A stretch of 34,165 nt of DNA from Spirochaetales bacterium (GTDB lineage Bacteria > Spirochaetota > Spirochaetia > DSM-2461), in contig JAFGXR010000042.1 in the NCBI GenBank assembly GCA_016936555.1, positions 1 through 34,165 on the forward strand, read 5' to 3'. This document shows, piece after piece, positions 17,681 to 33,574 of this stretch. Position 1 is the stretch's first letter. Every line of letters begins with the position of its first letter. Under the pieces are notes generated by a model. That model was not told where the DNA came from. It saw only the letters and a program-made list of their open reading frames with translations, and searched no databases. The position numbers and the translations under genes were made by a program.

Positions 17681-18703
17681 TTACGGCTCCAGTGCCATTT
17701 CAATATATTCGGGATGGAGAGCCGCTTTGAACACATCCAGTTCCGGCGATTTGAGAATTGTCTTCTGAGTCACCAGAAAATCGGCTGTCGCTTTCAAAAC
17801 CGATGCGAGGTTTCCGATCTGTCCCGATGTTCCCATATACGCTTCCGTCAGCTGATCTTCACCGGTGAGAAGTACGAGGCTTTTCATCTGTCTGGCCGCT
17901 TCGTCGGCGGGAATGCCGAACTGCCGGCTGACCGCTTCGGCCGCTCCGGCGCTGTCTGTGTTATAGTAGTCGACCGCCCGGATTTCACCTTTGATATATT
18001 CCGTCACAATTTCGGGATACTTCTCTGCAAAACCTTTTCTGGCAACCGTTATATCTCCGGTCAGGTATCCCGCAGCTGCCAGCTTCCGCGAATAGATGAC
18101 GACTTTGCCGTCGCTTTCCAGCATTTTAGCCAGGGTGGGCTCCCAGATAAAACTTCCGTCTATATCCCCTCTGTGCCATGCCGCCAGAGCGTCAGGCGGC
18201 TGCATATCGAAAATCTCAACCGATTCGGGATCGACTCCCTCAAGCTCCAGAGCCGCCAGGAGGTGGTAGTGGGTTGTCGCACCGAAGGGAACGGCAATTC
18301 TCTTCCCGGACAGGCTCTTGACGTCTGTGATGCCTGAACCGTTCTTCACGACCAGAGCTTCGTTGTCTCCGATGATGTCGTGTATCCATATCACATCGAA
18401 GGGAACCCCGTTGGCAATCCCCGCAGCAATGCCGCTGCTGCCCGAAAGACCGATATCAATGCTTCCCGCGGCCAGGCCTGTGTTCAGTTCCGAACCGGAA
18501 TTCACCTGGACCCACTCGACGGGGACCCCCGTCGCTTCTTCCAGCCAGTCGAAATCCTTTGAGATAATCTGGCCGTTGGGAATGGCCTGGAACCCGATAA
18601 CGATTTTTTTCGGTTTGCCCGATGCACTGTCATCGCCTCCCGCCGCCGCACCGTTTGTCAGTACAGCCGCTGCCAGAAATAGCAGTAAGAATACTTTTTT
18701 CAT
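17681..18703 (-). CDS. Taurine/sulfonate-type ABC substrate-binding protein (TauA-like)
   Basis: A Sec signal peptide (KKVFLLLFLAAAVLTNGAAA) precedes a TauA-like fold: KKIVIGFQAIPNGQIISKD, VEWVQVNSGSELNTGLAAGS, IDIGLSGSSGIAAGIANGVP and the substrate-pocket segment IWIHDIIGDNEALVV. The pattern NSGSE...LAAGSIDIGLSGSS followed by IHDIIGDNEALVV is close to taurine-binding proteins, so sulfonate is the best guess. No lipobox is evident, unlike the other binding protein in this window. The ATG at 18703 has AAGGG 5 nt upstream; a GTG at 18709 is the alternative. It sits between permease (16 bp away) and ATPase (4 bp away). No taurine dioxygenase (tauD) is in the window, as expected if the host is anaerobic. 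Confidence 0.9.
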   Translation of the reverse strand: MKKVFLLLFLAAAVLTNGAAAGGDDSASGKPKKIVIGFQAIPNGQIISKDFDWLEEATGVPVEWVQVNSGSELNTGLAAGSIDIGLSGSSGIAAGIANGVPFDVIWIHDIIGDNEALVVKNGSGITDVKSLSGKRIAVPFGATTHYHLLAALELEGVDPESVEIFDMQPPDALAAWHRGDIDGSFIWEPTLAKMLESDGKVVIYSRKLAAAGYLTGDITVARKGFAEKYPEIVTEYIKGEIRAVDYYNTDSAGAAEAVSRQFGIPADEAARQMKSLVLLTGEDQLTEAYMGTSGQIGNLASVLKATADFLVTQKTILKSPELDVFKAALHPEYIEMALEP

Positions 18704-18719
18704 TTTCACCCTTTCCTTT

Positions 18720-19505
18720 TTATCCTTTCCCTTTCCAGGGAACTATTAACATCTCGGCAATCCGGATCAGTCTGTCCAGGATTATGCCTGTAACACCCAT
18801 AACCAGTATCCCCATAAACATGACATCGCCTCTGAGGAATTTCCCCGCATCGAGTACCATCCATCCTATCCCCGATGTCGCCGCGACAATCTCCGAAGAA
18901 ACCAGGGTAGTGTAGGTGAAGCCGATACTGACTCTCATCCCCGTGAAGATCCCCGGCAGACAGGAGGGAAAAATCACCCGGGAGAAAATCTGCCTCTTAT
19001 TGGCTCCCAGAGACTGGGCCGTGTGTATCCTTTCGAGAGGAACCGAAGCCACAGCCGCCATGGAGTTGATGGAAAGAGGCGGGAAGGCGGCAAGAAACAA
19101 CAGGGTAATTTTCGAAGCATTCCCGATACCGAGCCATATAACCAGTATGGTGTAATAAGCCAGGGGGGGCAACGGTCTGTAAAACTCCACGATAGGGTCG
19201 AAAAGCGCTTTGATCTTTCTGTTGAAACCCATCAGCATGCCCAGGGGTATGGCGATCATACAGGCCAGAATAAAGCCGGAGAGCACTCTGAAAAGACTGT
19301 CTCCGAGATGCTCCAGGAGAGTCCCCCCGCGGTATCCCTCAAATGCGATTTCCTTAAAAGCCCTGAATACGCTGGCCGGAGTGGGAATAAAATATTCCGG
19401 GAAGATCTTCATGGCCGCAACAACAGACCAGGTGATAAATATCGCCAGTACAGCGGAGAGGGAGATAAGGGCTTCCTGTATTTTGTGTTTTTTATATTTA
19501 TTCAT
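18720..19505 (-). CDS. ABC transporter permease (TauC/SsuC-like)
   Basis: The 261-residue protein has about six membrane helices. The EAA coupling region is AQSLGANKRQIFSRVIFPSC followed by LPGIFTGMRVSIGFTYTTLV, and the family-typical FIPTPASVFRAFKEIAFEG and YRPLPPLAYYTILVIWLGIG are present. It is the first gene of the permease-binding protein-ATPase set. The start region has little Shine-Dalgarno. A hairpin lies 34-54 bp upstream, between this gene and the YeeE-like gene, so this set may be partly insulated from the genes before it. Confidence 0.92.
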   Translation of the reverse strand: MNKYKKHKIQEALISLSAVLAIFITWSVVAAMKIFPEYFIPTPASVFRAFKEIAFEGYRGGTLLEHLGDSLFRVLSGFILACMIAIPLGMLMGFNRKIKALFDPIVEFYRPLPPLAYYTILVIWLGIGNASKITLLFLAAFPPLSINSMAAVASVPLERIHTAQSLGANKRQIFSRVIFPSCLPGIFTGMRVSIGFTYTTLVSSEIVAATSGIGWMVLDAGKFLRGDVMFMGILVMGVTGIILDRLIRIAEMLIVPWKGKG

Positions 19506-19538
19506 TATCTATAACGATTGAATGTATTAAAGCCAAAG

Positions 19539-19559
19539 CAGGGGACGCGAGGTCCCCTG
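19539..19559 (-). terminator. Hairpin between YeeE-like and TauC-like genes, weak terminator
   Basis: Perfect 8 bp arms CAGGGGAC and GTCCCCTG enclose a 5-base loop, just 11 bp after the YeeE-like stop on the minus strand. The trailing sequence (CTTTGGCTTTAATAC) is only moderately T-rich, so termination may be partial. It probably separates or attenuates transcription between the YeeE/CoADR pair and the ABC importer. Confidence 0.6.
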
Positions 19560-19570
19560 TTAAATTTATA

Positions 19571-20854
19571 TCAGTTGACGCAGTTGTCAACAGTCATTTT
19601 GGCAACCATATTGCCGATGATCCCTCCGCCCGTCAGGGCAGCGAGGAAGATCCATCCGGAAAGGGAGAAGTTGGCAATCGGCGTGTAGAGCGCTCCGACG
19701 TTACAGCCGTTGGCCAGTCTCGTTCCGAATCCCATGAAGAGTCCGCCCAGTGCGAAAAAGAGTATCTGCATGGGGTGGATTTTCAGTTCCGATGTAAAAG
19801 TCGCTTTGAAAGATCCGGCCAGAAGGAGGGCCACAAGCGTCCCGATGACAATCCCGATATTCTGAACCGATACGGGATGGGCGAAAATTGACATATCGAA
19901 GAAAGAAGCCGGCATATGGGTGAAGGAGGCCAGCGCTTCCGAAGAGACTCCGAAAAGCATCAGCACTTTGCCGAACCACATTCCGTAGATGCTGGAAGCG
20001 CCCCATCCCGCTTTGGTGATACCCATGAGGAGCAGGAAGATTCCCCCGATCACGATGGCACCGGTTCTCATCTGCCAGGGGCGGACGAAGAGCATTTCAT
20101 AGGTTCTGGCGCTGAAGAGTTTGAACGGCTCTCTGCCGGCAGCTTCTTCCAGGAGTTTCGCCTGTTCGAGCTCTGTTCCCACGCCTGTGAATTTATTCTG
20201 GGCTTTCTTTCGGTCTTCGTATATTCTGGCGATCCATGCCACGATGGCGGCAAAGAGCACGGTCAGAAGAATCGCGCCGAGGTAGCCGCTCATGCCGTCC
20301 CACATAAACAGGTCGGGGAGATAAACGCCGCCGGCAAGCTGTTCGCCCGTGGGGGTGGAGAACCACGAATCAGTCACCCAGGACGCTGTCTTCTGTACGG
20401 GAAATCCGATGAAGACACCGAAGGCGAAGAAAACCAGCGTGATGATGGCTCTGGGAAGTCCCGTTACCAGGTCGGTGAGAACGCCCGATGCGCAGCATGA
20501 GGAAAAAGTCATTCCGAAACCGAAGGAGAGTCCTCCGAGAATCAGCCCCAGGTTGATGGGGTTGACCCACAGGTTGTATGTCGTGGCATCGACGCCGTAG
20601 AGAAAGGCAACGGAAACCGCAGCCGTTCCGGCGAACATCCACATGAGAACCCGCATCAGTTTGGACGATCCGGTTCTGTAGGCTCTGTTGACGCTGCCGG
20701 CGAATCCCATAAACCCTCTTGTCAGGGCATATCCGAATCCCATTCCGGCCAGAAGCCTGAAGAGGAGCATCTGCGTTCCGAGAAAGGCGCCGCCGAAAAT
20801 CAGCACAAGGGCGATTACGGCAAAACCCAGGATGTTTTCAATTTTGTTATTCAT
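19571..20854 (-). CDS. YeeE/YedE-family sulfur transporter, two-repeat form
   Basis: The 427-residue polytopic membrane protein has two sulfur-transport repeats. The first contains FGFGMTFSSCCASGVLTD, with paired cysteines, and the second contains FGTRLANGCNVGALYTPIAN, with one cysteine. TsuA, the characterised YeeE/YedE member, moves thiosulfate through conserved cysteines; others carry sulfite or persulfide-type sulfur. A soluble loop near residues 215-245 (DRKKAQNKFTGVGTELEQAK) links the halves. It lies 18 bp downstream of the CoA-disulfide-reductase/rhodanese gene, so the pair is likely one operon: the transporter admits reduced sulfur and the enzyme handles it. The exact sulfur species is not determined by sequence. 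Confidence 0.88.
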   Translation of the reverse strand: MNNKIENILGFAVIALVLIFGGAFLGTQMLLFRLLAGMGFGYALTRGFMGFAGSVNRAYRTGSSKLMRVLMWMFAGTAAVSVAFLYGVDATTYNLWVNPINLGLILGGLSFGFGMTFSSCCASGVLTDLVTGLPRAIITLVFFAFGVFIGFPVQKTASWVTDSWFSTPTGEQLAGGVYLPDLFMWDGMSGYLGAILLTVLFAAIVAWIARIYEDRKKAQNKFTGVGTELEQAKLLEEAAGREPFKLFSARTYEMLFVRPWQMRTGAIVIGGIFLLLMGITKAGWGASSIYGMWFGKVLMLFGVSSEALASFTHMPASFFDMSIFAHPVSVQNIGIVIGTLVALLLAGSFKATFTSELKIHPMQILFFALGGLFMGFGTRLANGCNVGALYTPIANFSLSGWIFLAALTGGGIIGNMVAKMTVDNCVN

Positions 20855-20872
20855 GATCCGTTTTTTCCTTTA

Positions 20873-22573
20873 TCAGTCGAAGTTGTATCCCGTGAGAATC
20901 GGTTCTCTTCCGGTCACCTTATCATTGTAGAACTCATAGAAGGAAATTCCCATAAATCCTCCGGAGATATTATACACCTGTTTGAAGCCTCTGTTCTGAA
21001 GAGCCAGACAGGCGTTGTAGCTTCTCTGACCGCTCCGGCAGTGGAGGTAGATCGGTTTGTCTTTGGGGAACTCGTCGATTCTGTCGCGGAGCTGACTGAG
21101 GGGGATATTTACAGCCCCCTTGAGGTGGGACAATTCGTATTCGTGCTCTTCCCGCACGTCGAAAATGGCTGCGCCCTCTTCTATAAGAGGTCTTACATCG
21201 TAAACATTTACCTGTCTGAAATCGTCGTGCATCAGGTTGATGGCAACGTAACCGGCGAAGTTTACAACGTCTTTTGCCGTTCCGAAGGGAGGAGCGTAAC
21301 AGAGTTCCAGGTCTTTAAGATCGTTGATGGTTCCATTGAATTTGATGACTGTGGCGATAACGTCTATTCTCTTGTCTACATTGCCTTTTCCGATGGCCTG
21401 GGCTCCGAGAATTTTTCCGGTCGGTTTTTCATAAATCAGCTTGAAGTGCATATTTTTGCTGGAAGGCATCAATCCCACTTTATCTCCGGGAATGATCCGG
21501 ACGCAGTCGTAATCCACTTTCAGACCGCTGTTTTTTATGAAACCGCAGGTCAGTCCTGTCGAAGCGGCATTGTAATCAAATACTTTCAGGATGGAGGAAC
21601 CGATATAACCGCGGTTGTCCACATACTGTCCGTTGATATGGTCGGCAACGCTTCTAGCCTGTTTCTGTGCCGGTCCGGCCAGGGGAAGCTTGAAATAGTC
21701 GTCGAAGAGGTAGCTGTAGACTTCGATGGCATCTCCGACAGCGTAGATATCCTGATCGATGGTCCGGAAGTTCTGGTCGACTTTCATCGCTCCGGTTTTT
21801 CCGATTTCCAGCCCGGCCTGTTTGGCCAGATCCGTTTCCGGAGAGACGCCGATAGCCATGATGACCACATCGGCATCGACTTTCCGTCCCGACTCGAGAT
21901 GAATCATTTTTGTATCGAAGGCCGTCACTTTATCATCGAGGATAAGATTGTTACCCTGATCATAAAGCTCTTTATGAAGAGTCTGAACCATGTCGTAGTC
22001 GAAGATTCTCAGGATCTGGGGCATCGCTTCGATAAGAGTCACTTCATAACCGGCTTCCTTCAGGTTTTCAACCGTTTCAATTCCGATAAAACCGGCACCG
22101 ATAACGCTGATCTTTTTGACATCCTTTTCCTTGATGGCTTTGGCTATCCTGTCGATATCGACTACGTTTCTGATTGTATGGTAGTTGATTTTGTCCAGGC
22201 CGGGAATCGGAGGTACTATGGGTTTTCCTCCCGGAGAGAGTACAAGCTTGTCGTAGGTCTCAGTGTAGTCTTTTCCGGTTTCAAGATTTCTGATCGAGAC
22301 TTCCTTTGCTGCTCTGTTTATGGAGACAACTTCATTATTGACTCTCACATCGATGTTGTACTGACTTTTAAAAAGTTCGGGCGTCATTAAAACCAGTTCT
22401 TCGGCTTTTTCTATTACACCGCTCAGGTGATAGGGGAGACAGCAGTTTGAGAAAGAGACGTTCGGTCCTTTTTCAAAAACAACAATCTGATCTTCTTCGC
22501 TATGTCTTCTCAGGCGCGCCGCTGCTGACGCACCACCGGCGACTCCACCGACAACAAGGATTTTCCTGGCCAT
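20873..22573 (-). CDS. CoA-disulfide reductase-like FAD enzyme fused to rhodanese (CoADR-RHD)
   Basis: The 566-residue protein begins with a FAD dinucleotide motif VVGGVAGGASAAARLRR. The redox Cys is in VSFSNCCLPYHLSG (Cys44, with an extra Cys45). The NAD(P) motif is VIGAGFIGIETVENL, and FAD binding ends in IYAVGDAIE. The C-terminal ~100 residues are a rhodanese domain with active-site loop YLHCRSGQRS (Cys512). Fused enzymes of this class reduce CoA disulfide, CoA persulfide or polysulfide with NAD(P)H; the rhodanese part passes sulfane sulfur. It is cytoplasmic. It is followed by the YeeE-like transporter and divergent from the rhodanese lipoproteins. Length is typical of the fusion family. 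Confidence 0.93.
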   Translation of the reverse strand: MARKILVVGGVAGGASAAARLRRHSEEDQIVVFEKGPNVSFSNCCLPYHLSGVIEKAEELVLMTPELFKSQYNIDVRVNNEVVSINRAAKEVSIRNLETGKDYTETYDKLVLSPGGKPIVPPIPGLDKINYHTIRNVVDIDRIAKAIKEKDVKKISVIGAGFIGIETVENLKEAGYEVTLIEAMPQILRIFDYDMVQTLHKELYDQGNNLILDDKVTAFDTKMIHLESGRKVDADVVIMAIGVSPETDLAKQAGLEIGKTGAMKVDQNFRTIDQDIYAVGDAIEVYSYLFDDYFKLPLAGPAQKQARSVADHINGQYVDNRGYIGSSILKVFDYNAASTGLTCGFIKNSGLKVDYDCVRIIPGDKVGLMPSSKNMHFKLIYEKPTGKILGAQAIGKGNVDKRIDVIATVIKFNGTINDLKDLELCYAPPFGTAKDVVNFAGYVAINLMHDDFRQVNVYDVRPLIEEGAAIFDVREEHEYELSHLKGAVNIPLSQLRDRIDEFPKDKPIYLHCRSGQRSYNACLALQNRGFKQVYNISGGFMGISFYEFYNDKVTGREPILTGYNFD

Positions 22574-22794
22574 TCTAAACTCCTTAGATATGAAAAATAA
22601 TATATATAGATAATAATTTATGTATAAAAAGTTATTTAATCTACTATAACATTAAACAGCCATGTCCCTAATTTTGTCCACCCTGTAAAATTAAAAAACA
22701 GATCTTTTTTGCCTGTGAACTCATTTATTTTCTGCATACAGACAGATGCGAATATAGGACTTTTTGAATGAAGTGCTTTACTTTTGGGAACTTA

Positions 22795-22824
22795 TTGACA
22801 ATAGAGATTTATCGGTGTTATTAA
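22795..22824 (+). promoter_or_regulatory. Putative sigma-70 promoter for the rhodanese lipoproteins
   Basis: A consensus TTGACA (22795-22800) is followed after 18 bases by TATTAA (22819-22824), about 46 bp before the ATG at 22871. The surrounding ~300 bp divergent gap (22574-22870) is AT-rich, with several TATAAT-like runs on the minus strand near 22590-22625 that could serve the CoADR gene. I see no regulator site I can name there. Confidence 0.55.
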
Positions 22825-22870
22825 TTTTCTATCATATTGTGAAAAAATTATTGATTAAGGATGCTGATAC

Positions 22871-23797
22871 ATGAAACCAATCGGGAAAATAGGGATTTCA
22901 GCCTTCATTTTAATTCAGGTTCTGCTAATGACAGCCTGTTCTTTTGTGGATTATGCTGAATCGGGAACTCTGATTGTAAGTGCTTCCGAGGCTTTGAGAA
23001 AAATTGAATCGGGCTATATTCCCGTTGATGCCCAGAGAGCATCCGCCTATGGCAAAGAACATCTGGCAAACGCAGTCAATATCGAGCGGAATGCCATAAT
23101 GATCAAGGAACCGGTGGCAAACACTCTGGCTACAGAGGATATCGTCGCCCGGGCCGCCGGTGCCGCAGGCCTGACGGAAAAAAGCAATATTGTTATTTAC
23201 GATGACAACATGAACATGGATTCATCCCGTCTCTGGTGGACTCTGAAGATATACGGACATAAAGGGGATATTGTTATTGTTTCCGGCGGGCTTGCCGCTC
23301 TGAAAGAAGAAGGCGCATCTGTCACCGACAGTAAAACCGCAATCTCCGCCGCGGCCTATAACACCTCTCCCCTCAATAGAGACATGCTCGCGACAAAAGA
23401 GGAAATATTATCGAATATCGATGATCCCTCTCCCGATTTTGTCCTGATCGATGTGCGGACTGATGAAGAATTCAACGCCGGAACCATACCCGGATCCATC
23501 CATATCAATCATGAGAGAAATATGTTTGTCAACGAGGAGAAAGGAACGACTTTCCGCCCGTTCAGCCATAACAGAATCCTCTACAGGGAACTGGGAATAA
23601 CGCCGGAAAAAGAAATCGTCATGTACTGCAAAAGCTCCGTCCGGGCCGCCAATACCTTTGCGGCTCTCTATGATGCCGGTTATAGAAATCTCAAGGTTTA
23701 CGACGGAGCCTATCTGGAGTGGGATGCGGAAAAACTTCCCGTCATCAAGAGGGAAGTAGAGGTCAAAACGACGACGACCCAGTCTGACAATTCCTGA
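22871..23797 (+). CDS. Lipoprotein with two rhodanese domains (thiosulfate sulfurtransferase-like)
   Basis: The signal peptide ends in lipobox VLLMTAC, giving an exported lipid-anchored protein of 308 residues. Domain 1 (about 35-155) has rhodanese structure (IPVDAQRASAYGKEHLANAV) but the catalytic loop reads VIYDDNMNMD, with no Cys, so it is probably inactive. Domain 2 (about 175-290) has FVLIDVRTDEEFNAGTIPGS and active loop IVMYCKSSVRAAN with Cys253. This inactive-plus-active layout is that of classical thiosulfate/mercaptopyruvate sulfurtransferases. It should move sulfane sulfur outside the cytoplasmic membrane. It is followed after 57 bp by a second rhodanese lipoprotein. Confidence 0.9.
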   Translation: MKPIGKIGISAFILIQVLLMTACSFVDYAESGTLIVSASEALRKIESGYIPVDAQRASAYGKEHLANAVNIERNAIMIKEPVANTLATEDIVARAAGAAGLTEKSNIVIYDDNMNMDSSRLWWTLKIYGHKGDIVIVSGGLAALKEEGASVTDSKTAISAAAYNTSPLNRDMLATKEEILSNIDDPSPDFVLIDVRTDEEFNAGTIPGSIHINHERNMFVNEEKGTTFRPFSHNRILYRELGITPEKEIVMYCKSSVRAANTFAALYDAGYRNLKVYDGAYLEWDAEKLPVIKREVEVKTTTTQSDNS

Positions 23798-23854
23798 TCA
23801 TTTTGGTTAACGCAGATCTTTTAAAAAGTTCTGATTATTGAAGGAGTGTGATAT

Positions 23855-24763
23855 ATGAAAAAAATGCTATGGATGCTGCTGGCAGCAGCTCTTGTCCTCG
23901 GTTCCTGCGCAAAAGCGGAACAGGAACCCGTTAAAGCGGTTGAAAAGGCCGCTGAAGTTTCCGTCGATACTGTAAAAGCCGCCGGAGAAGCCTATTTCGC
24001 AGAATATCCCGGTTCGCGGATTATCCCCGCCGACAAAGTTTTCGCCGCCATCGATGCCGATGAGGATTTCCTTATCGTCGATATCAGAAGCGCTGAAGCC
24101 TACGCCGCAGGTCACCTGAAAGGAGCTGTAAGTGCACCCTGGGGTCCCGCAATCGCTGATGCTCTGAACTGGCTGCCCGATGATATTCCCGTCTATGTCA
24201 ATTGTGTAACCGGCCAGACTGCCGGCCAGACTGTTGCCGTTCTGAATATGGCCGGAATCCAGGCCCAGTCCATCAAATCGGGTTGGAATCTCGGAATTGC
24301 CAAAACGGAAGGATATGAGGCTTATGTTGAAACAACAGCAAATATGGCTCCCGATGCATCCGGTGTCAAATACGATCCCGCTGTCAGAGCCGCTGCCGAA
24401 AAATATTTCAAAGCCATTCCTGAAACGGGAAGTAATATCATTGCATCGGCCGCGTTGAAGGAAAAAATGGATGCTGAAGAGGCAATGACAATCGTCTCTG
24501 TCAGACAGCCCGATGCCTATGCGGAAGGTCATATCGAAGGCGCCATCAATATACCCTTCGGAAAAGATATGCAGAAACAGTTCGCGCAGCTTCCCAAAGA
24601 TGAGAAGGTCTATGTTTACTGCTACTCCGGGCAGACAGCCGGACAGACCGTCGGTATTCTCAGAATGCTCGGATACGATGCCGTTTCCGTAAAAAGCGGT
24701 ATGGGAAATGCCGGTACAAACGGATCAGGTTGGTCTGTAGAAGGCTTCCCGACAGTCCAGTAA
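23855..24763 (+). CDS. Lipoprotein with tandem, both-active rhodanese domains
   Basis: Signal peptide and lipobox VLGSC (Cys18) indicate a lipoprotein of 302 residues. Two homologous rhodanese units follow, each with active-site Cys: VNCVTGQTAGQTV (Cys117) and VYCYSGQTAGQTV (Cys256). The near-identical CxxGQTAGQTV loops and the matching lead-ins (AGEAYFAEYPGSRIIPA and AAEKYFKAIPETGSNIIAS) show an internal duplication. The loops carry Thr-Ala-Gly-Gln in place of the usual Arg-Ser, so the acceptor may differ from that of classical enzymes. The Shine-Dalgarno AAGGAG is strong. It is followed by an intrinsic terminator, so it ends the transcript begun by the preceding gene. Confidence 0.9.
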   Translation: MKKMLWMLLAAALVLGSCAKAEQEPVKAVEKAAEVSVDTVKAAGEAYFAEYPGSRIIPADKVFAAIDADEDFLIVDIRSAEAYAAGHLKGAVSAPWGPAIADALNWLPDDIPVYVNCVTGQTAGQTVAVLNMAGIQAQSIKSGWNLGIAKTEGYEAYVETTANMAPDASGVKYDPAVRAAAEKYFKAIPETGSNIIASAALKEKMDAEEAMTIVSVRQPDAYAEGHIEGAINIPFGKDMQKQFAQLPKDEKVYVYCYSGQTAGQTVGILRMLGYDAVSVKSGMGNAGTNGSGWSVEGFPTVQ

Positions 24764-26598: not shown

Positions 26599-28986
26599 TC
26601 AGAGAGCCTGCTCTGTCCTCGCTATAATATCGTCCTGAGTCTCTTCTGAGAGATTGGTGTAGAAGGCCGAATAACCGGCGACCCTGACGATAAGATCCCT
26701 GTATTGCCGGGGATCTTTTTTTGCGGCCAGAAGAGTCTCCCTGTCTATGATATTGAACTGGATGTGCCAGCCTTTCAATCTGTCGAAAAATCCATGAAGA
26801 AGGGAAATCAGCTTCTCTCTCTTTTCCTCTGTCTGCAGGCTGAGCGGAGAGAGTTTCTGGTTGAGAAGGACGCCGCCCAGAATTTTTTCGGTCGGCAGCT
26901 TGGACAGACTTTTCATTACAGCCGTCGGGCCCTGTCTATCCGCGCCGGCGCTCGGTGAGGCGCCTTCAGCCAGGGGCTGCCAGGCTTTTCTGCCGTCGGG
27001 AGTCGCCGGAACGACGGAGCCCGCCGGAACATTCCCCGAGATGCTGGAGGTTCCGGCATAGTATTTGCCTCCGATGGGGCCTTTCCCTTCCCTGATAGTG
27101 CCGTATTTACTGATTTCATCAATATAATAATGATAAGCTTCTCCGATAAGAGAGTCGACATAATCATCGTCATTCCCATACTTGGGTGCGCCGTTCAGAA
27201 GAAGCTGACGTACTTTTTCTCCGTCCGGACCTTCGAAATTGCTGTTCACCGCTTCCATAAGCTGAAGGGGCGTCAGGCGTTTCTCTTCGAAAACCAGCTT
27301 TTTTATAACAGCAAGAGAGTCGGCCAGGTTGGCTATTCCCACCTGAAGTCCCGATACGAAATCGTATTTGCTTCCGCCCTGGTGGACTGTCATTCCCCGT
27401 TCCAGACAGGGATCGGTGAAGGCGGAACAGAGAAGGTCCGGCGCTTCGTCGCGAAGCACCGTATCGATAGCTGTGTCGATATCGATACCCGCTTTCGCGT
27501 AGAACCTGACCTGTTTTTCCCAGGCTTCCATGACCTGGCCGAAGTCTGTGAAATCCTCGAATCGCCCTGTCCCCGGGCAGAATCGTTTCCCGCTGACCGG
27601 ATCCATGCCGTCGTTGAGGGCAGCCAGAAAAACGCGCATAAAATTCAGGAAATGCTTTCCCGTACAGCGGTAACCCCATTTTCCCGGTACAGCCGTTTCA
27701 ATGCAGCCGATAGCCGAGTAATCCCAGGCATCTTCCTCTTCCACTCCCAGATTGAGAAATGAGGGGATGACAATGGCATCGTTATTGAAAGCAGGCATGC
27801 CGAACCCCAGGCGGATCACGGCCACGCATTCGTCGAGAAAAGCGGGATTGATGTTCTGATGGAAACGTACTGAGAGATTGGGCTGGGTCAGTCTTGTCTC
27901 GCCTACAGAACGGAGAATCAGATAACTTAAATCATTGACCGCATCGGAACCGTCGCGCAGCTGACCGCCTATGGTCACGTTCTGATATAGGGGCCCGCCG
28001 GCGGAAAAGCGGGTGTGGGACCAGGAGCGGATCTTCTTCATACTGACAAGTTTCAGCCAAAGGGATTCGAGCAGCTCCATAACAAAATCATCGGATATAA
28101 GCCCTTTTTCTTTGTCCTCTTTGTAAAACGGGTAGAGATACTGATCCATCCTGCCCAGAGACTGGGAATGGCCGTTGCTTTCGATCTGCAGAACCAGCTG
28201 TATGAAGAACGTGAGTTGAAGAGCCTGATAGAAGGTCTCTGGTTTGGAATGGGTGATGTGCAGGCAGTTGGAACTTATCTGTTCCAGTTCCTGCCGCCTC
28301 TTCTCATCATTTTCCTGGCCGGCCAGTTCCAATGCCAGAGCCGCGTACCGGGATATAAAGACCTGCAGGGCTTTCAGACTGATGAGAACAGAGTGGTAGA
28401 AATCCCCTTTCTGCCGGTTTTCCAGTGTGGCATCTTCAGTGTCATTCAGCTTCTCTTCTGTAAAATTCACATACCATCCCAGGCCTTTGTCCAGAATTTT
28501 CCTGTAATGAGCGGCTATATGGGCATCGCCGGAAGTCAGATTCCCTTCCGCCCGGATAATTGATGAATCGTGAATCTCACGGAGTAATCCGGTCATCTGT
28601 TCCCGCCCTTTGTCCAGAGTGGTCCGGTTTTCCCAGAAGCGGCATATATGCAAAAGTTCGTCTTTGGTTTTTCTATCGGGGTAAAAAGCGTCGCCGGGCC
28701 GTTTTTCAAATTCATCGATTTCTTTGATGATCCATTCAACTGCGTATTCCGGGAAGATCGGTGCAGCATAGATTGCCGATGAGTGATTCCCCGCCAGAAG
28801 GTCTTCCGGTTCTATACGGATCGTCATGTTTTCCAGAGTTTTCTTCAGTCCGTAAGCCCTTTTTATTATGACGGGCTGATCATCGCGGAGACGGTAGGCA
28901 TCGGTGTAAAACCGGGCACGTTCCATGCAGATAGACGGTGTGGATGATAGGATTCTCTCCCTGTATCGATTAATTCTTTCGGTCAT
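26599..28986 (-). CDS. Glycyl radical enzyme, dehydratase/lyase type (PFL-like fold)
   Basis: The 795-residue protein ends with the radical motif IVRVAGYSAFYTNLS (Gly771). The active-site loop is YSAIGCIETAVPGKWGYRC with Cys428 and Glu430, the C-x-E pair of glycerol/propanediol dehydratase, choline lyase and similar C-O, C-N or C-S lyases, not the Cys-Cys pair of true pyruvate formate-lyase. His156 in SGDAHIAAHYRKILDKGLG sits where the dehydratases have a catalytic His. The enzyme is oxygen-sensitive, so it should act under anoxia. The substrate is unknown. GGGAG lies 5 nt before ATG. No radical-SAM activase gene lies within the window, although most relatives have one adjacent. It is divergent from a DeoR regulator. 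Confidence 0.93.
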   Translation of the reverse strand: MTERINRYRERILSSTPSICMERARFYTDAYRLRDDQPVIIKRAYGLKKTLENMTIRIEPEDLLAGNHSSAIYAAPIFPEYAVEWIIKEIDEFEKRPGDAFYPDRKTKDELLHICRFWENRTTLDKGREQMTGLLREIHDSSIIRAEGNLTSGDAHIAAHYRKILDKGLGWYVNFTEEKLNDTEDATLENRQKGDFYHSVLISLKALQVFISRYAALALELAGQENDEKRRQELEQISSNCLHITHSKPETFYQALQLTFFIQLVLQIESNGHSQSLGRMDQYLYPFYKEDKEKGLISDDFVMELLESLWLKLVSMKKIRSWSHTRFSAGGPLYQNVTIGGQLRDGSDAVNDLSYLILRSVGETRLTQPNLSVRFHQNINPAFLDECVAVIRLGFGMPAFNNDAIVIPSFLNLGVEEEDAWDYSAIGCIETAVPGKWGYRCTGKHFLNFMRVFLAALNDGMDPVSGKRFCPGTGRFEDFTDFGQVMEAWEKQVRFYAKAGIDIDTAIDTVLRDEAPDLLCSAFTDPCLERGMTVHQGGSKYDFVSGLQVGIANLADSLAVIKKLVFEEKRLTPLQLMEAVNSNFEGPDGEKVRQLLLNGAPKYGNDDDYVDSLIGEAYHYYIDEISKYGTIREGKGPIGGKYYAGTSSISGNVPAGSVVPATPDGRKAWQPLAEGASPSAGADRQGPTAVMKSLSKLPTEKILGGVLLNQKLSPLSLQTEEKREKLISLLHGFFDRLKGWHIQFNIIDRETLLAAKKDPRQYRDLIVRVAGYSAFYTNLSEETQDDIIARTEQAL

Positions 28987-29094: not shown

Positions 29095-29838
29095 ATGATG
29101 AACCGCCATGAACAGATTCTGAATATCGTCAACAAAGAGAATGAAGTTTCGGTTAACCGCCTGGCGGAACTTCTGAAGGTGTCGCTTGTCACAATACGCA
29201 GTGACCTCAGGGCACTTGAGGAAGAGAAACTTCTGATGCGAACTCACGGAGGGGCTGCGCTGCCCCCTGTCGATGATATCACCCATCGCCTGAGCATCAA
29301 TTTCCCTATCAAAAAAAGAATAGCCGCCGCAGCCGCGGATCTGGTGAAGGACGGTGAGACCATCCTTCTCGAAGCCGGATCGACTATCTCCCTTATGGCC
29401 CGTTTTCTTGCAGAGCGGAAAGATCTCAATGTCATCACCAATAACGCTTTTGTCGCGCGGCAGTTTAAAAACTCCCCTTCGGTCAATGTCATTCTTATGG
29501 GGGGATTGTATCAGAAGGAGAGTGAAACCATGGTGGGACCTATGATTGCGGAGTACATCAGCTACTATAATTTCAGTAAAGTCTTTCTCGGCATTGACGG
29601 CTTCTCTCTTGATGAAGGCATCATGTGCCGTGACCTTGAGCGGGCTGAAGTTATGTCTCTTTTTGTCAAAAGAGGAAAAAAAGCTATTGTGCTCTCTGAC
29701 TCGGGAAAACTGGGAAAAACAGCAGTTCGATCGGTATGCCGTCCCGAAGAGATCGATTGCTTTATCAGCGATGGGGACGTCGGAGAAAAGTACAGAGATT
29801 ATTTCAGAAAAAAGGGAATAGAGCTAATAGAAACCTGA
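29095..29838 (+). CDS. DeoR-family transcriptional regulator
   Basis: The 247-residue protein starts with the DeoR HTH (RHEQILNIVNKENEVSVNRL, SLVTIRSDLRALEEEKLLMR) ending in THGGAALPP, the family hallmark. The sensor half has PIKKRIAAAAADLVKDGETI, LLEAGSTISLMARFL, VITNNAFVA, VILMGGLYQKES and FLGIDGFS, the DeoRC isomerase-like fold that binds phosphorylated sugars or related metabolites. It is divergent from the glycyl radical enzyme gene and 14 bp before the GNAT gene. It likely represses the enzyme gene until a phosphorylated metabolite appears. ATG 29098 is an alternative start. Confidence 0.92.
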   Translation: MMNRHEQILNIVNKENEVSVNRLAELLKVSLVTIRSDLRALEEEKLLMRTHGGAALPPVDDITHRLSINFPIKKRIAAAAADLVKDGETILLEAGSTISLMARFLAERKDLNVITNNAFVARQFKNSPSVNVILMGGLYQKESETMVGPMIAEYISYYNFSKVFLGIDGFSLDEGIMCRDLERAEVMSLFVKRGKKAIVLSDSGKLGKTAVRSVCRPEEIDCFISDGDVGEKYRDYFRKKGIELIET

Positions 29839-30638: not shown

Positions 30639-30800
30639 GTTTGACTGGTTATTCCTCGGGGAATCGTTAAAGATATGTAACAAATGTTATCTAATCTGAA
30701 TACATAAGTTTTTTTATTTGACGACAACAAAAAAGAATAATCCAAAGAAGAAGTCATATTTTCTGAGAGAGATGAGAAAATTTTCGAAATTTTGCGTAAG

Positions 30801-30816
30801 TGTGATATTTATCACA
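30801..30816. promoter_or_regulatory. Crp-like operator TGTGATATTTATCACA before the ferredoxin/permease operon
   Basis: The site is a 7 bp perfect dyad, TGTGATA and TATCACA, with TT between: the TGTGA-N6-TCACA consensus of Crp, not TTGAT-N4-ATCAA of Fnr. It ends 46 bp before the operon start at 30863. The Crp/Fnr gene at the end of the same operon has recognition helix CSREALSRTVSSLEKE, with the Arg-Glu-x3-Arg pattern that reads TGTGA in Crp. The position would suit activation at about -40 if transcription begins near 30850, but the promoter boxes are weak. Confidence 0.75.
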
Positions 30817-30862: not shown

Positions 30863-31513
30863 ATGAAAGAAAAAACAAGAAATATTGTAAGGTGGATATG
30901 GGAAATCGCTGCATTGATTCTATTTTTCGGACTCACTGTAGCCGGTAAATTACAGCTTTGGTTCGCCATTTTTATGCTGGGTGTTCTTATCTCTGTATTT
31001 GCCGGAAGATTTTACTGCGGGTGGATCTGCCCGATGAATACAATATTCCGGCCTTTAAGCTGGTTTTACGGGAAATTGAAAATCAAAAGGCTGAAGAGTC
31101 CGAAGTTTCTATCGGGCAACGGATTTAGGTATTTCATCCTAATCCTTTTTCTCGCATTAATGATTTTTGTCCGAATTCTTCATGTAAAAATGAATATTCT
31201 GCTTTATCTGACTATGCTGTCTGTCCTGGTCAGTCTGGTTTTTGAAGAGGCATTCTGGCACAGAAAAATCTGTCCTTTCGGAACAATCCTGAGTCTTACA
31301 TCCCGAAAGGCCAAAGTGGCCATGAATATAGATGAATCAGGCTGTATCGGCTGTGGTGCCTGTCAGAAAAAATGTCCATCCGATTCCATTATTACAAAAG
31401 AGGACGGCAAGCGTTACAACCTGAAGCATGAATGCCTTATGTGTTATCAGTGCATTGATGCCTGCCCGACCAAGGTCTGTGAAATCGGTACAATACAGGA
31501 GAGAAAAATATGA
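30863..31513 (+). CDS. NapH/YccM-like membrane ferredoxin, two 4Fe-4S clusters
   Basis: The protein has about four membrane helices, with two C-x3-CP motifs, FYCGWICPMNT and HRKICPFGTI, typical of NapH, CcoG, RdxA and NosR relatives. The C-terminal domain has two ferredoxin motifs: CIGCGACQKKCP and CLMCYQCIDACP. It should pass electrons at the cytoplasmic face of the membrane, possibly from quinol or a soluble donor. ATG 30863 has AGGAGG 5 nt upstream and is preferred over ATG 30848, which lies before that site. The stop overlaps the cupin ATG by 4 bases (ATGA). No Nap, Nos or cytochrome oxidase genes are present, so its partner is probably in this operon. Confidence 0.9.
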   Translation: MKEKTRNIVRWIWEIAALILFFGLTVAGKLQLWFAIFMLGVLISVFAGRFYCGWICPMNTIFRPLSWFYGKLKIKRLKSPKFLSGNGFRYFILILFLALMIFVRILHVKMNILLYLTMLSVLVSLVFEEAFWHRKICPFGTILSLTSRKAKVAMNIDESGCIGCGACQKKCPSDSIITKEDGKRYNLKHECLMCYQCIDACPTKVCEIGTIQERKI

Positions 31514-31833
31514 TAATTACTACTGTGAAGCAAGCGGTAACTGTTGTTCAAAAGAACGGGGTGAAAGCTCAGAAACTTTACGATCATCAGGAAGCCCTTG
31601 TAAATCATTTAACCTTTCAGCCTGGAGCCCGTTTGAATACCCATACAACACCGGTTGATGTTTTCTTTTATGTGCTTGAGGGAAAAGCCTGGATTGAGAT
31701 CGGAGATGAACGAATGGCCGTTGAAACCGATTCCATTGTAGAAAGTCCCAAAGGTATTCCACATGCACTGGAAAACTTCAGTGGGGAAAAAATCCTGAGG
31801 GTTCTGGTTGTTAAAACGCCAAAACCTCAATAA
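31510..31833 (+). CDS. Small single-domain cupin
   Basis: The 107-residue protein is one cupin barrel. Motif 1 is PGARLNTHTTPVDVFFYVLE followed by a Gly (one His only in place of H-x-H). Motif 2 is SPKGIPHALEN, with the conserved Pro-x-Gly-x2-His-x3-Asn. The metal site is thus partly changed. Such cupins act as small metal-dependent enzymes or ligand binders; function here is unknown. It begins inside the stop of the ferredoxin gene, so expression is coupled. Confidence 0.88.
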   Translation: MIITTVKQAVTVVQKNGVKAQKLYDHQEALVNHLTFQPGARLNTHTTPVDVFFYVLEGKAWIEIGDERMAVETDSIVESPKGIPHALENFSGEKILRVLVVKTPKPQ

Positions 31834-31850
31834 GATTTCAGGAGCGAAGA

Positions 31851-32327
31851 ATGACAACAATAATAATGATAGTTATATCCATAGCGTTACTTGCACTGTC
31901 TATTGCAAAAAGCAGACAGAAAAGCAAAGAAGCTGTGTTGATAGCTAAAAAGATGTTTCTGGGAACTATTTTAGAAGTAGCGGGAGTCATGGCTATAGTC
32001 GGGCTGGTTCTGGCTCTTCTACCTCCCGAGCTGATACAGAAGATTCTAGGCGGCAGTCATGTAATGATGAGCACGGTTTACGGGGCTCTTATCGGGACCG
32101 TCACCATTATGCCTGCCTTTATCGCTTTTCCCTTAACCAAATCGCTCTTTGTGAGCGGAGCTCATCTGGTGTCTCTGGCCGCCTTTCTCACAACATTGAC
32201 CATGGTGGGATTTGCCACTTTTCCCATTGAATCGAAGCATTTCGGAATGAAATTCACCCTTGTTCGAAACGGTGTCAGCTTTATAATGGCTTTGGTCATC
32301 GCTTTTTTTATGGGGGTCATTCTCTAA
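31851..32327 (+). CDS. Half-size permease, COG0701/ArsP-like, first half
   Basis: The 158-residue protein has about four or five membrane helices (MIVISIALLALSIA, VAGVMAIVGLVLALLPPELI, TVYGALIGTVTIMPAFIAFP, GVSFIMALVIAFFMGVIL). The GTVTIMPAFIAFPL segment matches the GAxTP/LPAF-like motif of the DUF318 permeases, a group that includes the organoarsenical exporter ArsP. Those proteins are usually ~300-350 residues with two inverted halves; here the halves are two genes. GGAG lies 6 nt before the ATG. Its TAA shares one base with the ATG of the second half. Assignment to the family is by motif and layout only. Confidence 0.75.
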   Translation: MTTIIMIVISIALLALSIAKSRQKSKEAVLIAKKMFLGTILEVAGVMAIVGLVLALLPPELIQKILGGSHVMMSTVYGALIGTVTIMPAFIAFPLTKSLFVSGAHLVSLAAFLTTLTMVGFATFPIESKHFGMKFTLVRNGVSFIMALVIAFFMGVIL

Positions 32328-32968
32328 TGAAACAATTGAAAAAGTTCAAAATCATTATTCTTGCAGTCCTGCTTTATGCCGTTTTTTTTATTCTCAAAAG
32401 AGATATCTTCTTCCATGCCGTAAACATAACAGGTGGTTTCCTGAAAGAGATGATACAGGTCCTCCCGCCGGTTATGATATTATCAGCTCTGATAACCGTA
32501 TGGGTTCCTTCTTCAACCATTCAGAGGGGGCTCGGAAAACAATCGGGTTTTATGGGACGGATTCTCTCTGTCTTTATCGGGTCGGTTTCCGCCGGACCAA
32601 TCTACGCCGCGTTTCCGGCAGCGCTCGTGTTATTCAAGAAGGGTGCATCCATTTCAAATATGGTTATAATATTAAGTTCATGGGCTGTCATTAAAGTTCC
32701 CATGCTTATGGTGGAAATCAAGTTCCTTGGTCTTCAGTTTTCACTGGTCAGGTTTCTGTTGACCATCCCGGCAGTTATTCTAATAGGATTGATTACGGAG
32801 AAATTGGTACATAGATCCGAAATCCATGAAAGCGGGGAAGAAGGTCTGACAAACCTGCCCAATTTGAATTGCGGAGGATGCGGTTATTCCAGTTGTGACG
32901 ACTTTAAACAGGCTATATTGAATGAAGGGGTAGATATTAACGGATGTGTTGTGTTGAAAAAGGGATAG
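32327..32968 (+). CDS. Half-size permease with C-terminal RnfB-like Fe-S domain
   Basis: Residues 1-165 are a half permease with about five helices (IIILAVLLYAVFFIL, MIQVLPPVMILSALITVWV, SVFIGSVSAGPIYAAFPAAL, IILSSWAVIKVPMLMVE). SAGPIYAAFPAALVLFKKGA parallels the MPAFIAFPL loop of the first half. The C-terminal ~45 residues are soluble and contain NLNCGGCGYSSC plus a Cys 17 residues later: C-x2-C-x4-C-x16-C, the exact spacing of the 4Fe-4S domain in RnfB (PF04060-like). A transporter half with its own Fe-S cluster is unusual and suggests electron input from the ferredoxin gene upstream. It is followed after 3 bp by the Crp/Fnr gene. Confidence 0.8.
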   Translation: MKQLKKFKIIILAVLLYAVFFILKRDIFFHAVNITGGFLKEMIQVLPPVMILSALITVWVPSSTIQRGLGKQSGFMGRILSVFIGSVSAGPIYAAFPAALVLFKKGASISNMVIILSSWAVIKVPMLMVEIKFLGLQFSLVRFLLTIPAVILIGLITEKLVHRSEIHESGEEGLTNLPNLNCGGCGYSSCDDFKQAILNEGVDINGCVVLKKG

Positions 32969-32971
32969 TAT

Positions 32972-33574
32972 GTGGATTTGAAAGATTTCTTCCATAATGA
33001 AAAGTCTCTGAATCTGGATAAAAGTGAAGTTCTCCACAGACCGGATGAAACCTGTAAGAGTCTTGGATACCTCCTGTCCGGTAGACTGGTTATGAAAAAA
33101 TATCTGTCTACCGGTAAAGAATTATACCTGACCGAATTTAAAGCCGGAGATATTTTCGGAGAACTTCTGGTTCTGTCCGGGGAAAAGTATAAGGGGTGGC
33201 TTGTGGCCGAAGAACCCTCTCAGGTCTTTGAGTTGAGCTATATTAAATTGAATAAATTGTTGAGTGATCCTGCATACAAGACACTGTATTTTCGGGAGAT
33301 ATCCCGAAGAGTCTCCAGGATGACAGAGAGGATAGAAATCCTCTCCTATAAAAAAGTTTCAGATCGCATCATTATCTATTTGATTAATCATTTTGAAGAG
33401 GGGAAACCCTTTCGGATTAATATATCTTTATTATCTGATATCCTGGATTGTTCCCGGGAAGCCCTTTCCAGAACCGTATCTTCTCTGGAAAAGGAGAATC
33501 TTCTCGTTAAGCATGGCCGTTTCATCACGATCCGCCGGGTCGCCGATCTGGAAGAGCGCCTGTCAATTTTCTGA
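32972..33574 (+). CDS. Crp/Fnr-family transcriptional regulator
   Basis: The 200-residue protein has an N-terminal cyclic-nucleotide-like barrel (YLLSGRLVMKKYLSTGKELY, FKAGDIFGELLVLSG), a long dimer helix (ISRRVSRMTERIEILSYKKV) and a C-terminal winged HTH (LSDILDCSREALSRTVSSLE). It lacks the N-terminal cysteine cluster of Fnr and the Arg-Ser/Thr pair of the cAMP pocket in Crp, so the signal is probably neither [4Fe-4S]-O2 in the Fnr manner nor cAMP. The recognition helix predicts a TGTGA half-site, found before this operon. GTG 32972 has AAGGG 7 nt upstream. It ends the operon. Confidence 0.9.
   Translation: MDLKDFFHNEKSLNLDKSEVLHRPDETCKSLGYLLSGRLVMKKYLSTGKELYLTEFKAGDIFGELLVLSGEKYKGWLVAEEPSQVFELSYIKLNKLLSDPAYKTLYFREISRRVSRMTERIEILSYKKVSDRIIIYLINHFEEGKPFRINISLLSDILDCSREALSRTVSSLEKENLLVKHGRFITIRRVADLEERLSIF

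Follow-up and report, generated by a model that had tools for sequence, protein, structure and literature searches.

Organization and conservation of the operon

We describe a compact five-gene operon from a Spirochaetales bacterium that encodes a NapH-like membrane protein, a cupin, the two halves (A and B) of a split ArsP-type permease, the second of which carries an iron-sulfur (Fe-S) tail, and a Crp/Fnr regulator. The stretch of DNA analysed (the window; assembly GCA_016936555.1, contig JAFGXR010000042.1, positions 1-34,165 of the forward strand) is 34,165 nucleotides long and belongs to a genome that we refer to as G000. All five open reading frames (ORFs) were confirmed at 30863-33574 on the plus strand and are closely packed: the NapH-like and cupin genes overlap by 4 bases, 17 bases separate the cupin gene from half A, halves A and B overlap by 1 base (TAATG) and only 3 bases lie between half B and the Crp/Fnr gene. 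An earlier reading made from the letters alone (the sequence-only reading) had listed the same parts and the same tight junctions, and both the coordinates and our Pfam and NCBIfam matches agree with that list.

The first gene (30863..31513, +) encodes a protein of 216 amino acids (aa) with membrane CxxxCP-type motifs and two predicted 4Fe-4S clusters. Its Pfam matches to Fer4_5 (47.3 bits, cut-off 22) and Fer4_10 (38.5 bits, cut-off 25.5) combine the Fer4_5 domain with two 4Fe-4S motifs. The best named relative in NCBIfam is NapH/MauN (TIGR02163), at 79.8 bits against a cut-off of 213, with NF007013 at 77.1 against 234; because these scores fall far under the NapH cut-offs, "NapH-like" is the right description and "NapH" would be wrong. 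With the NapH/MauN family the protein shares the Fer4_5 membrane motifs and two 4Fe-4S clusters, but it is shorter (216 aa against 255-286 profile positions of TIGR02163) and has no adjoining Nap or Mau genes. The second gene (31510..31833, +) encodes a small single-domain cupin of 107 aa, identified by Cupin_2 (E = 2.4e-12) and by alignments, which may serve as a small metal- or ligand-binding accessory.

The same five genes are found in the same order at locus L028 of a second spirochaete (G005), where the cupin and permease halves are 72-78% identical to those of the window, the NapH-like protein about 60% and the regulator about 33%. Four of the five, in the order half A, half B, NapH-like and Crp and without the cupin, lie at locus L057 of genome G026. 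Given the shared order in G005 and the four genes of L057, the arrangement is not due to chance, and the claim of the sequence-only reading that this regulator-ended set is a real operon is borne out. That the set reflects chance clustering or an annotation artefact has a negligible probability: the low identity of the regulator, and nothing else, speaks for it, and it is contradicted by these two loci, since gene order, overlaps and the operator described below are kept in the relatives.

Anatomy of the split permease

Half A (31851..32327, +; 158 aa) and half B (32327..32968, +; 213 aa) each hold one ArsP-type repeat, to which half B adds a C-terminal Fe-S domain. Half B matches ArsP_1 (PF03773) with 54.9 bits (E = 9.6e-15) against a cut-off of 32.3, and half A reaches 31.2 bits (E = 1.7e-7), 1.1 bits below the cut-off. 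The two halves are homologous to each other (hhalign probability 97.8 over 134 columns, 27% identity) and both align to the first half of PF03773. The repeats lie on two adjacent genes in 48 of the 48 pairs studied; an apparent natural fusion in L109 was rejected, as its long ORF has only half B in frame and the halves are separate genes. The positive charges of half A lie in loop 1, which carries more of them than loop 2 in 48/48 pairs, and those of half B lie in the N-terminus and loop 2, with loop 1 carrying fewer than loop 2 in 35 of the 48 pairs and an equal number in 11. Under the positive-inside rule, these opposite charge patterns predict opposite orientations of the halves and a cytosolic tail, which suggests an inverted-repeat transporter split over two genes. 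The halves would thus together form one ArsP-type (2.A.119) transporter. AlphaFold2 models of the halves (mean pLDDT 55 and 57) were too weak to use, and among solved structures none was similar to the permease in sequence, the sole match being that of the Fe-S tail to RnfB.

An ArsP protein consists of two repeats of four segments each (4+4), and single-repeat members are known, so that the split itself is a known variation (PMC7176098). The window permease resembles the ArsP organoarsenical exporters (TC 2.A.119, PF03773/COG0701) in its homologous membrane repeat, both halves matching the same profile region, but differs from them in being encoded by two genes, predicted to be heteromeric and Fe-S-tailed, and in having no arsenic genes recognised nearby. 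Its halves also show a weak profile likeness (14-25 bits against cut-offs of 300-325) to the SO_0444 Cu/Zn efflux family (NF033936) and the SaoE efflux transporter (NF040736), which in contrast are single full-length proteins. In this part of the tree split ArsP-type permeases are frequent, a pair being present in most relatives examined, and we came across no known substrate for them. The window's own genome has a second, untailed split pair (L006; G000:C37:2120-3135) that has no immediate NapH-like, cupin or Crp neighbour.

The Fe-S tail spans residues 177-208 of half B with the spacing Cx2Cx4Cx16C and matches PF04060 with 44.7 bits (cut-off 23; E = 1.1e-11), and its four cysteines are invariant across five aligned tails. 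In cysteine pattern and sequence it is like the N-terminal Fe-S domain of RnfB, including the RnfB of solved Rnf complexes, but in the window the domain is fused to a permease half instead of belonging to Rnf, and its cluster is predicted from sequence. If true, the fusion of an Fe-S domain to one half of a transporter would place this permease among the few with a redox sensor built in.

Distribution across genomes

Among 41 relatives, orthologs of the tailed half B are present in G005 (73%) and G026 (62%). Additional Fe-S-tailed pairs were recovered by a scan of genome contigs, in Kosmotogales (L058) and in metagenome-assembled genomes of Clostridia (L059 and L060), and by searches of the phylum (G113, L089) and of the class to which L059 belongs (G410, G412), and one more candidate (G411) is cut by a contig end. 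Since the contig scan, which found four loci, relied on two peptide patterns, this census is a lower bound. In a tree of 49 half-B proteins all tailed proteins fall into one group, to which Acetoanaerobium noterae is sister (100/99) and whose sole other member, L111, is truncated with its tail region not visible. Crp regulators accompany one branch of this clade and TetR regulators several members of the other. A cupin gene is adjacent in the window, G005, G410 and A. noterae, and a NapH-like gene adjoins 3 of the 10 pairs of the clade, namely those of the window, G005 and L057 only.

This distribution bears on the mechanism put forward in the sequence-only reading, in which the NapH-like protein would pass electrons to the Fe-S tail of half B, thereby driving or gating transport. 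The five-gene order kept in G005 and the nature of the tail, a bona fide PF04060 domain of the RnfB N-terminal type, are in its favour. However, besides the rarity of adjacent NapH-like genes in the clade, the genomes of L059 and L060 gave no NapH-like match at E 1e-10 and that of L058 gave only a distant polyferredoxin-like match, and NapH-like proteins mostly co-occur with untailed pairs. Because some tailed permeases have no close NapH-like protein in their genome, and some NapH-like proteins are accompanied by untailed permeases, direct electron transfer between the two is unsupported and we consider it very unlikely. The tail, predicted to be cytosolic, would more probably sense or gate than carry bulk electrons.

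A looser association between the NapH-like protein and the permease is seen at the level of whole genomes. The short NapH-like subfamily is present in 11 of 393 spirochaete genomes (E ≤ 1e-28), and with the window and G005 left out a half B pair (E ≤ 1e-25) was found in 8 of the 9 positive genomes, compared to 18 of 292 others. Fisher's exact test gave 9e-9 by genome, a value that is inflated by shared ancestry, and 1.5e-4 by genus (5/6 versus 14/135). Both E thresholds were set before the test, and the base rate of 18/292 stems from the half-B search without the window, G032, G291 and G296; these last three were half-B-positive in the first phylum search, and five of the remaining six were positive in a later search, with only G496 negative. 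The co-occurring pairs lie elsewhere in the genome from the NapH-like gene, and the later-search matches stop before the tail. In G518, an untailed permease pair (L176) has a perfect TGTGACTATTGTCACA before half A. The sequence-only reading had made its case depend on permease pairs being found mostly together with the ferredoxin and cupin; this does not hold for the wider family, in which most pairs are without a NapH-like or cupin gene and many lie beside PadR, ArsR or TetR genes (labels given by eye wherever no family search is cited), but the co-occurrence of NapH-like protein and pair persists where the two are unlinked.

Two cultivated clostridia provide a further connection. In Peptoclostridium acidaminophilum, a 0.8 Mb plasmid carries NapH-like and cupin genes (EAL2_RS12085, RS12090) and, at a distance of about 500 kb, two permease halves with a divergent Crp gene. 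The motif GTTACnnnnGTAAC occurs five times on this plasmid, against none for the reversed control, and each copy lies upstream of a gene: at the Crp and permease-permease genes, before NapH-cupin, before a Crp paralog, at a cupin and ABC-type efflux cluster and at a second ABC-type efflux cluster. In A. noterae the motif is located between Crp and permease-permease-cupin, the only other copy lying within an ORF and its frequency being no higher than that of the control. As GTTACnnnnGTAAC precedes separate arrangements of the same parts in two clostridia, these appear to share regulation. The two ABC-type efflux clusters (L171 and L172) have an RND-like adaptor, one of them with its own cupin, and together with the NapH-cupin and permease loci make up a candidate Crp/Fnr efflux regulon.

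Such dispersed arrangements could also mean that the NapH-like protein with the cupin, on the one hand, and the split permease, on the other, are separate modules under related Crp/Fnr regulators that were joined by happenstance in a few spirochaetes. Several spirochaetes have a NapH-like gene that stands divergent to Crp, is joined to a cupin gene (L150, L151) or precedes one for a flavodiiron protein (L152-L154), and these NapH-Crp and NapH-cupin loci, beside flavodiiron or peroxiredoxin genes, have no adjoining permease. Such an explanation would fit the NapH-Crp, NapH-cupin-Crp and NapH-flavodiiron loci that lack a permease, the permease-Crp and permease-TetR loci that lack a NapH-like gene, and the distant loci of P. 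acidaminophilum. Yet the strong genome-level co-occurrence and the shared P. acidaminophilum motif point beyond proximity, and we regard a merely accidental union as doubtful. That the NapH-like protein, the cupin and the split permease are functionally connected, as the sequence-only reading had proposed, is supported beyond the window genome by the same order in two genomes, by the co-occurrence and by the Peptoclostridium motif.

Transcriptional control

The fifth gene (32972..33574, +; GTG start) encodes a regulator of 200 aa with cNMP_binding and HTH_Crp_2 domains. A predicted operator that the sequence-only reading had overlooked, TGTGATATTTATCACA (30801..30816, unstranded), lies 46 bases 5' of the NapH-like start codon. 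Only three copies of TGTGA-N6-TCACA are present in the 4.7 Mb genome, and TGTGATATTTATCACA is the sole intergenic one, the other two lying within ORFs. The operator is kept in the relatives, as CGTGATATATATCACA before the NapH-like gene of G005 and as TGTGATATCTATCACA before half A of L057; in L058 no TGTGA-N6-TCACA operator was seen. A possible second site, GTAACAAATGTTAT (30677..30690, unstranded), has one mismatch to the HcpR2 motif GTAACnnnnGTTAC; it is weak and was not seen in the two relatives.

The recognition helix of the regulator, CSREALSR, has Arg180/Glu181/Arg185-type contacts. According to the contact-residue rule of Rodionov et al., Arg, Glu and Arg predict TGTGA half-sites (PMC1274295), and as Arg-Glu-Arg occupies the three base-contacting positions in the regulators of the window (SREALSR), G005 (SREALSR), L057 (TREAVSR) and L058 (SRETVSR), TGTGA half-sites are predicted for them. 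The conserved operator and the matching helix thus uphold the earlier claim of regulation by a Crp/Fnr protein, and we infer that the operon is self-regulated, this protein acting on the upstream palindrome and thereby on its own gene as well.

Desulfovibrio HcpR1 has the same contact residues, binds TGTGA-N6-TCACA, autoregulates and responds to nitric oxide (NO) (PMC5701242). It is by helix and site that the window regulator is HcpR1-like, the NO response and autoregulation being features of HcpR1. The HcpR1 operon (Ddes_0524-0528; PMC5701242) resembles that of the window in its R-E-R helix, its TGTGA-N6-TCACA site and the presence of a 4Fe-4S protein, but its companions are FMN-binding and flavodoxin proteins and no permease or cupin is named. 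A second precedent is the C. tetani operon CTC0897-CTC0898 (permease and ferredoxin-like protein), a predicted regulon member beside the HcpR2 paralog CTC0896 (Rodionov et al. 2005; PMC1274295). Compared by its published description only, it likewise places a permease and a ferredoxin-like protein under an HcpR-type Crp/Fnr protein, and differs in its divergent regulator and in that no cupin is mentioned (PMC1274295). The statement in the sequence-only reading that no named system has this set therefore holds, but a related pairing of permease and ferredoxin-like protein was noted in 2005.

Two identities for the regulator were rejected. The hybrid cluster protein gene (hcp) of the window genome (L064) adjoins the gene of another Crp/Fnr protein, HcpR-like and with an Arg-Pro helix, and the HcpR2 motif there, GTAACATGTGTTAC, is perfect; the window regulator is therefore a distinct protein, and with neither adjacency to nor control of hcp found for it, it was not assigned as HcpR. 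FNR, a 4Fe-4S oxygen sensor, was discarded because the 200-aa regulator has no N-terminal cysteine cluster. Cys28 in the sensor domain, a possible thiol sensor, is found at the same place in most regulators beside NapH-like or permease genes and is absent from two HcpR-like proteins and from L089.

Interpretation

The genes found near the pairs and their partners offer a clue to function. In G005, a C-terminal remnant of hcp (L028:5575-6117, minus strand), the N-terminal part of which is absent from the locus, lies 47 bases upstream of the NapH-like gene. Elsewhere hcp lies next to a cupin near the pair of L048 and, with an Rrf2 regulator, is convergent with the pair of L109. A rubrerythrin gene is located upstream of L059, DUF438-hemerythrin-PAS proteins are encoded beside the pairs of L033 and L042, and peroxiredoxin accompanies NapH-cupin in L150 and, by sequence, in L151. 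In three spirochaete genomes (L152, L153, L154), Crp is divergent from NapH-like-flavodiiron genes beside V-type ATPase-like genes (by eye), and the flavodiiron protein of L152 reaches 636.7 with the model of anaerobic nitric oxide reductase flavorubredoxin, whose cut-off is 635. All of these neighbours belong to, or resemble, the NO or O2/peroxide defence of anaerobes and so point, by guilt of association, to nitrosative or oxidative stress.

We therefore propose, at a probability of roughly 0.4, that the operon encodes a Crp/Fnr-controlled nitrosative/oxidative-stress membrane module of strict anaerobes with a heteromeric ArsP-type exporter. In this model, the Crp/Fnr protein would sense a redox or nitrosative signal, bind the palindrome TGTGATATnTATCACA just upstream and control the operon including its own gene. 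The NapH-like protein would move electrons at the membrane for detoxification, tied to the permease through co-regulation and co-occurrence, physical contact being no part of the claim. The transporter would most likely export a small toxic product of nitrosative or oxidative damage, or a metal(loid) or sulfur species. Since one permease clade is tied to a regulator class, an operator and a NapH-like carrier, its function is directly testable.

Several observations weigh against this proposal. The genome's own hcp differs from the operon in both regulator and motif (GTAACATGTGTTAC), the identity of the window-type regulators within their group is low (about 33%) and their tree support modest (81/97), and the stress neighbours vary by locus, some being convergent rather than co-transcribed (L048, L109). 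The motif GTTACnnnnGTAAC (GTTAC motif) showed no enrichment over the control in spirochaetes of family f9, and was rejected as their regulon motif. Most split pairs are accompanied by ArsR, PadR or TetR genes and some lie near metal or sulfur genes (L122, L047, L036, L128, L115, L117), so that the substrate of the family may be unrelated to NO. Finally, the signal and substrate of the operon are read from gene context and sequence.

These same neighbours lend weight to the main rival, in which the compound exported by the split permease would be a thiol-reactive metal(loid), an organo-metalloid or a sulfane-sulfur species. Its preparation would fall to the NapH-like protein and the cupin, and the Crp/Fnr protein would report redox state only. 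Organoarsenicals and Cu/Zn are what the ArsP_1 family and its named relatives export. Among the neighbours of other split pairs are genes for ArsR, a heavy-metal P-type ATPase (L128), rhodanese/CoA-disulfide-reductase (L122, L047) and rhodanese (L036), several of these labels having been given by eye, and a sulfur gene cluster is situated 6 kb upstream in the window. Those neighbours, however, belong to other branches of the permease tree than the Fe-S-tail clade, and none of the Fe-S-tailed pairs examined had a recognisable ars, mer or metal gene beside it. We consider a metal(loid) or sulfur exporter somewhat unlikely, and favour the regulated stress exporter. A more specific form of the latter, in which the redox or nitrosylation state of a cytosolic Fe-S cluster fused to one half gates transport through a heteromeric ArsP-type permease, and in which this permease and the NapH-like carrier form a membrane system dedicated to detoxification in anaerobes, strikes us as improbable.

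Other features of the window

A scan for promoters and terminators gave results no better than shuffled sequences. None of the five operon proteins matched a PADLOC anti-phage model (0/5), and a role in anti-phage defence was rejected on this basis. Upstream of the operon, a glycyl radical enzyme of the PFL2/glycerol dehydratase family is encoded at 26599-28986 (964 bits against a cut-off of 678, and under the cut-offs of the named subtypes shown), and a DeoR-type regulator at 29095 adjoins its gene; no activase was recognised among the flanking ORFs, no search aimed at activases having been made. The sulfur gene cluster, at 17681-24763, comprises a taurine/sulfonate-type ABC transporter, a YedE/TsuA-like permease, a CoA-disulfide-reductase/rhodanese protein and two tandem rhodanese-like proteins.

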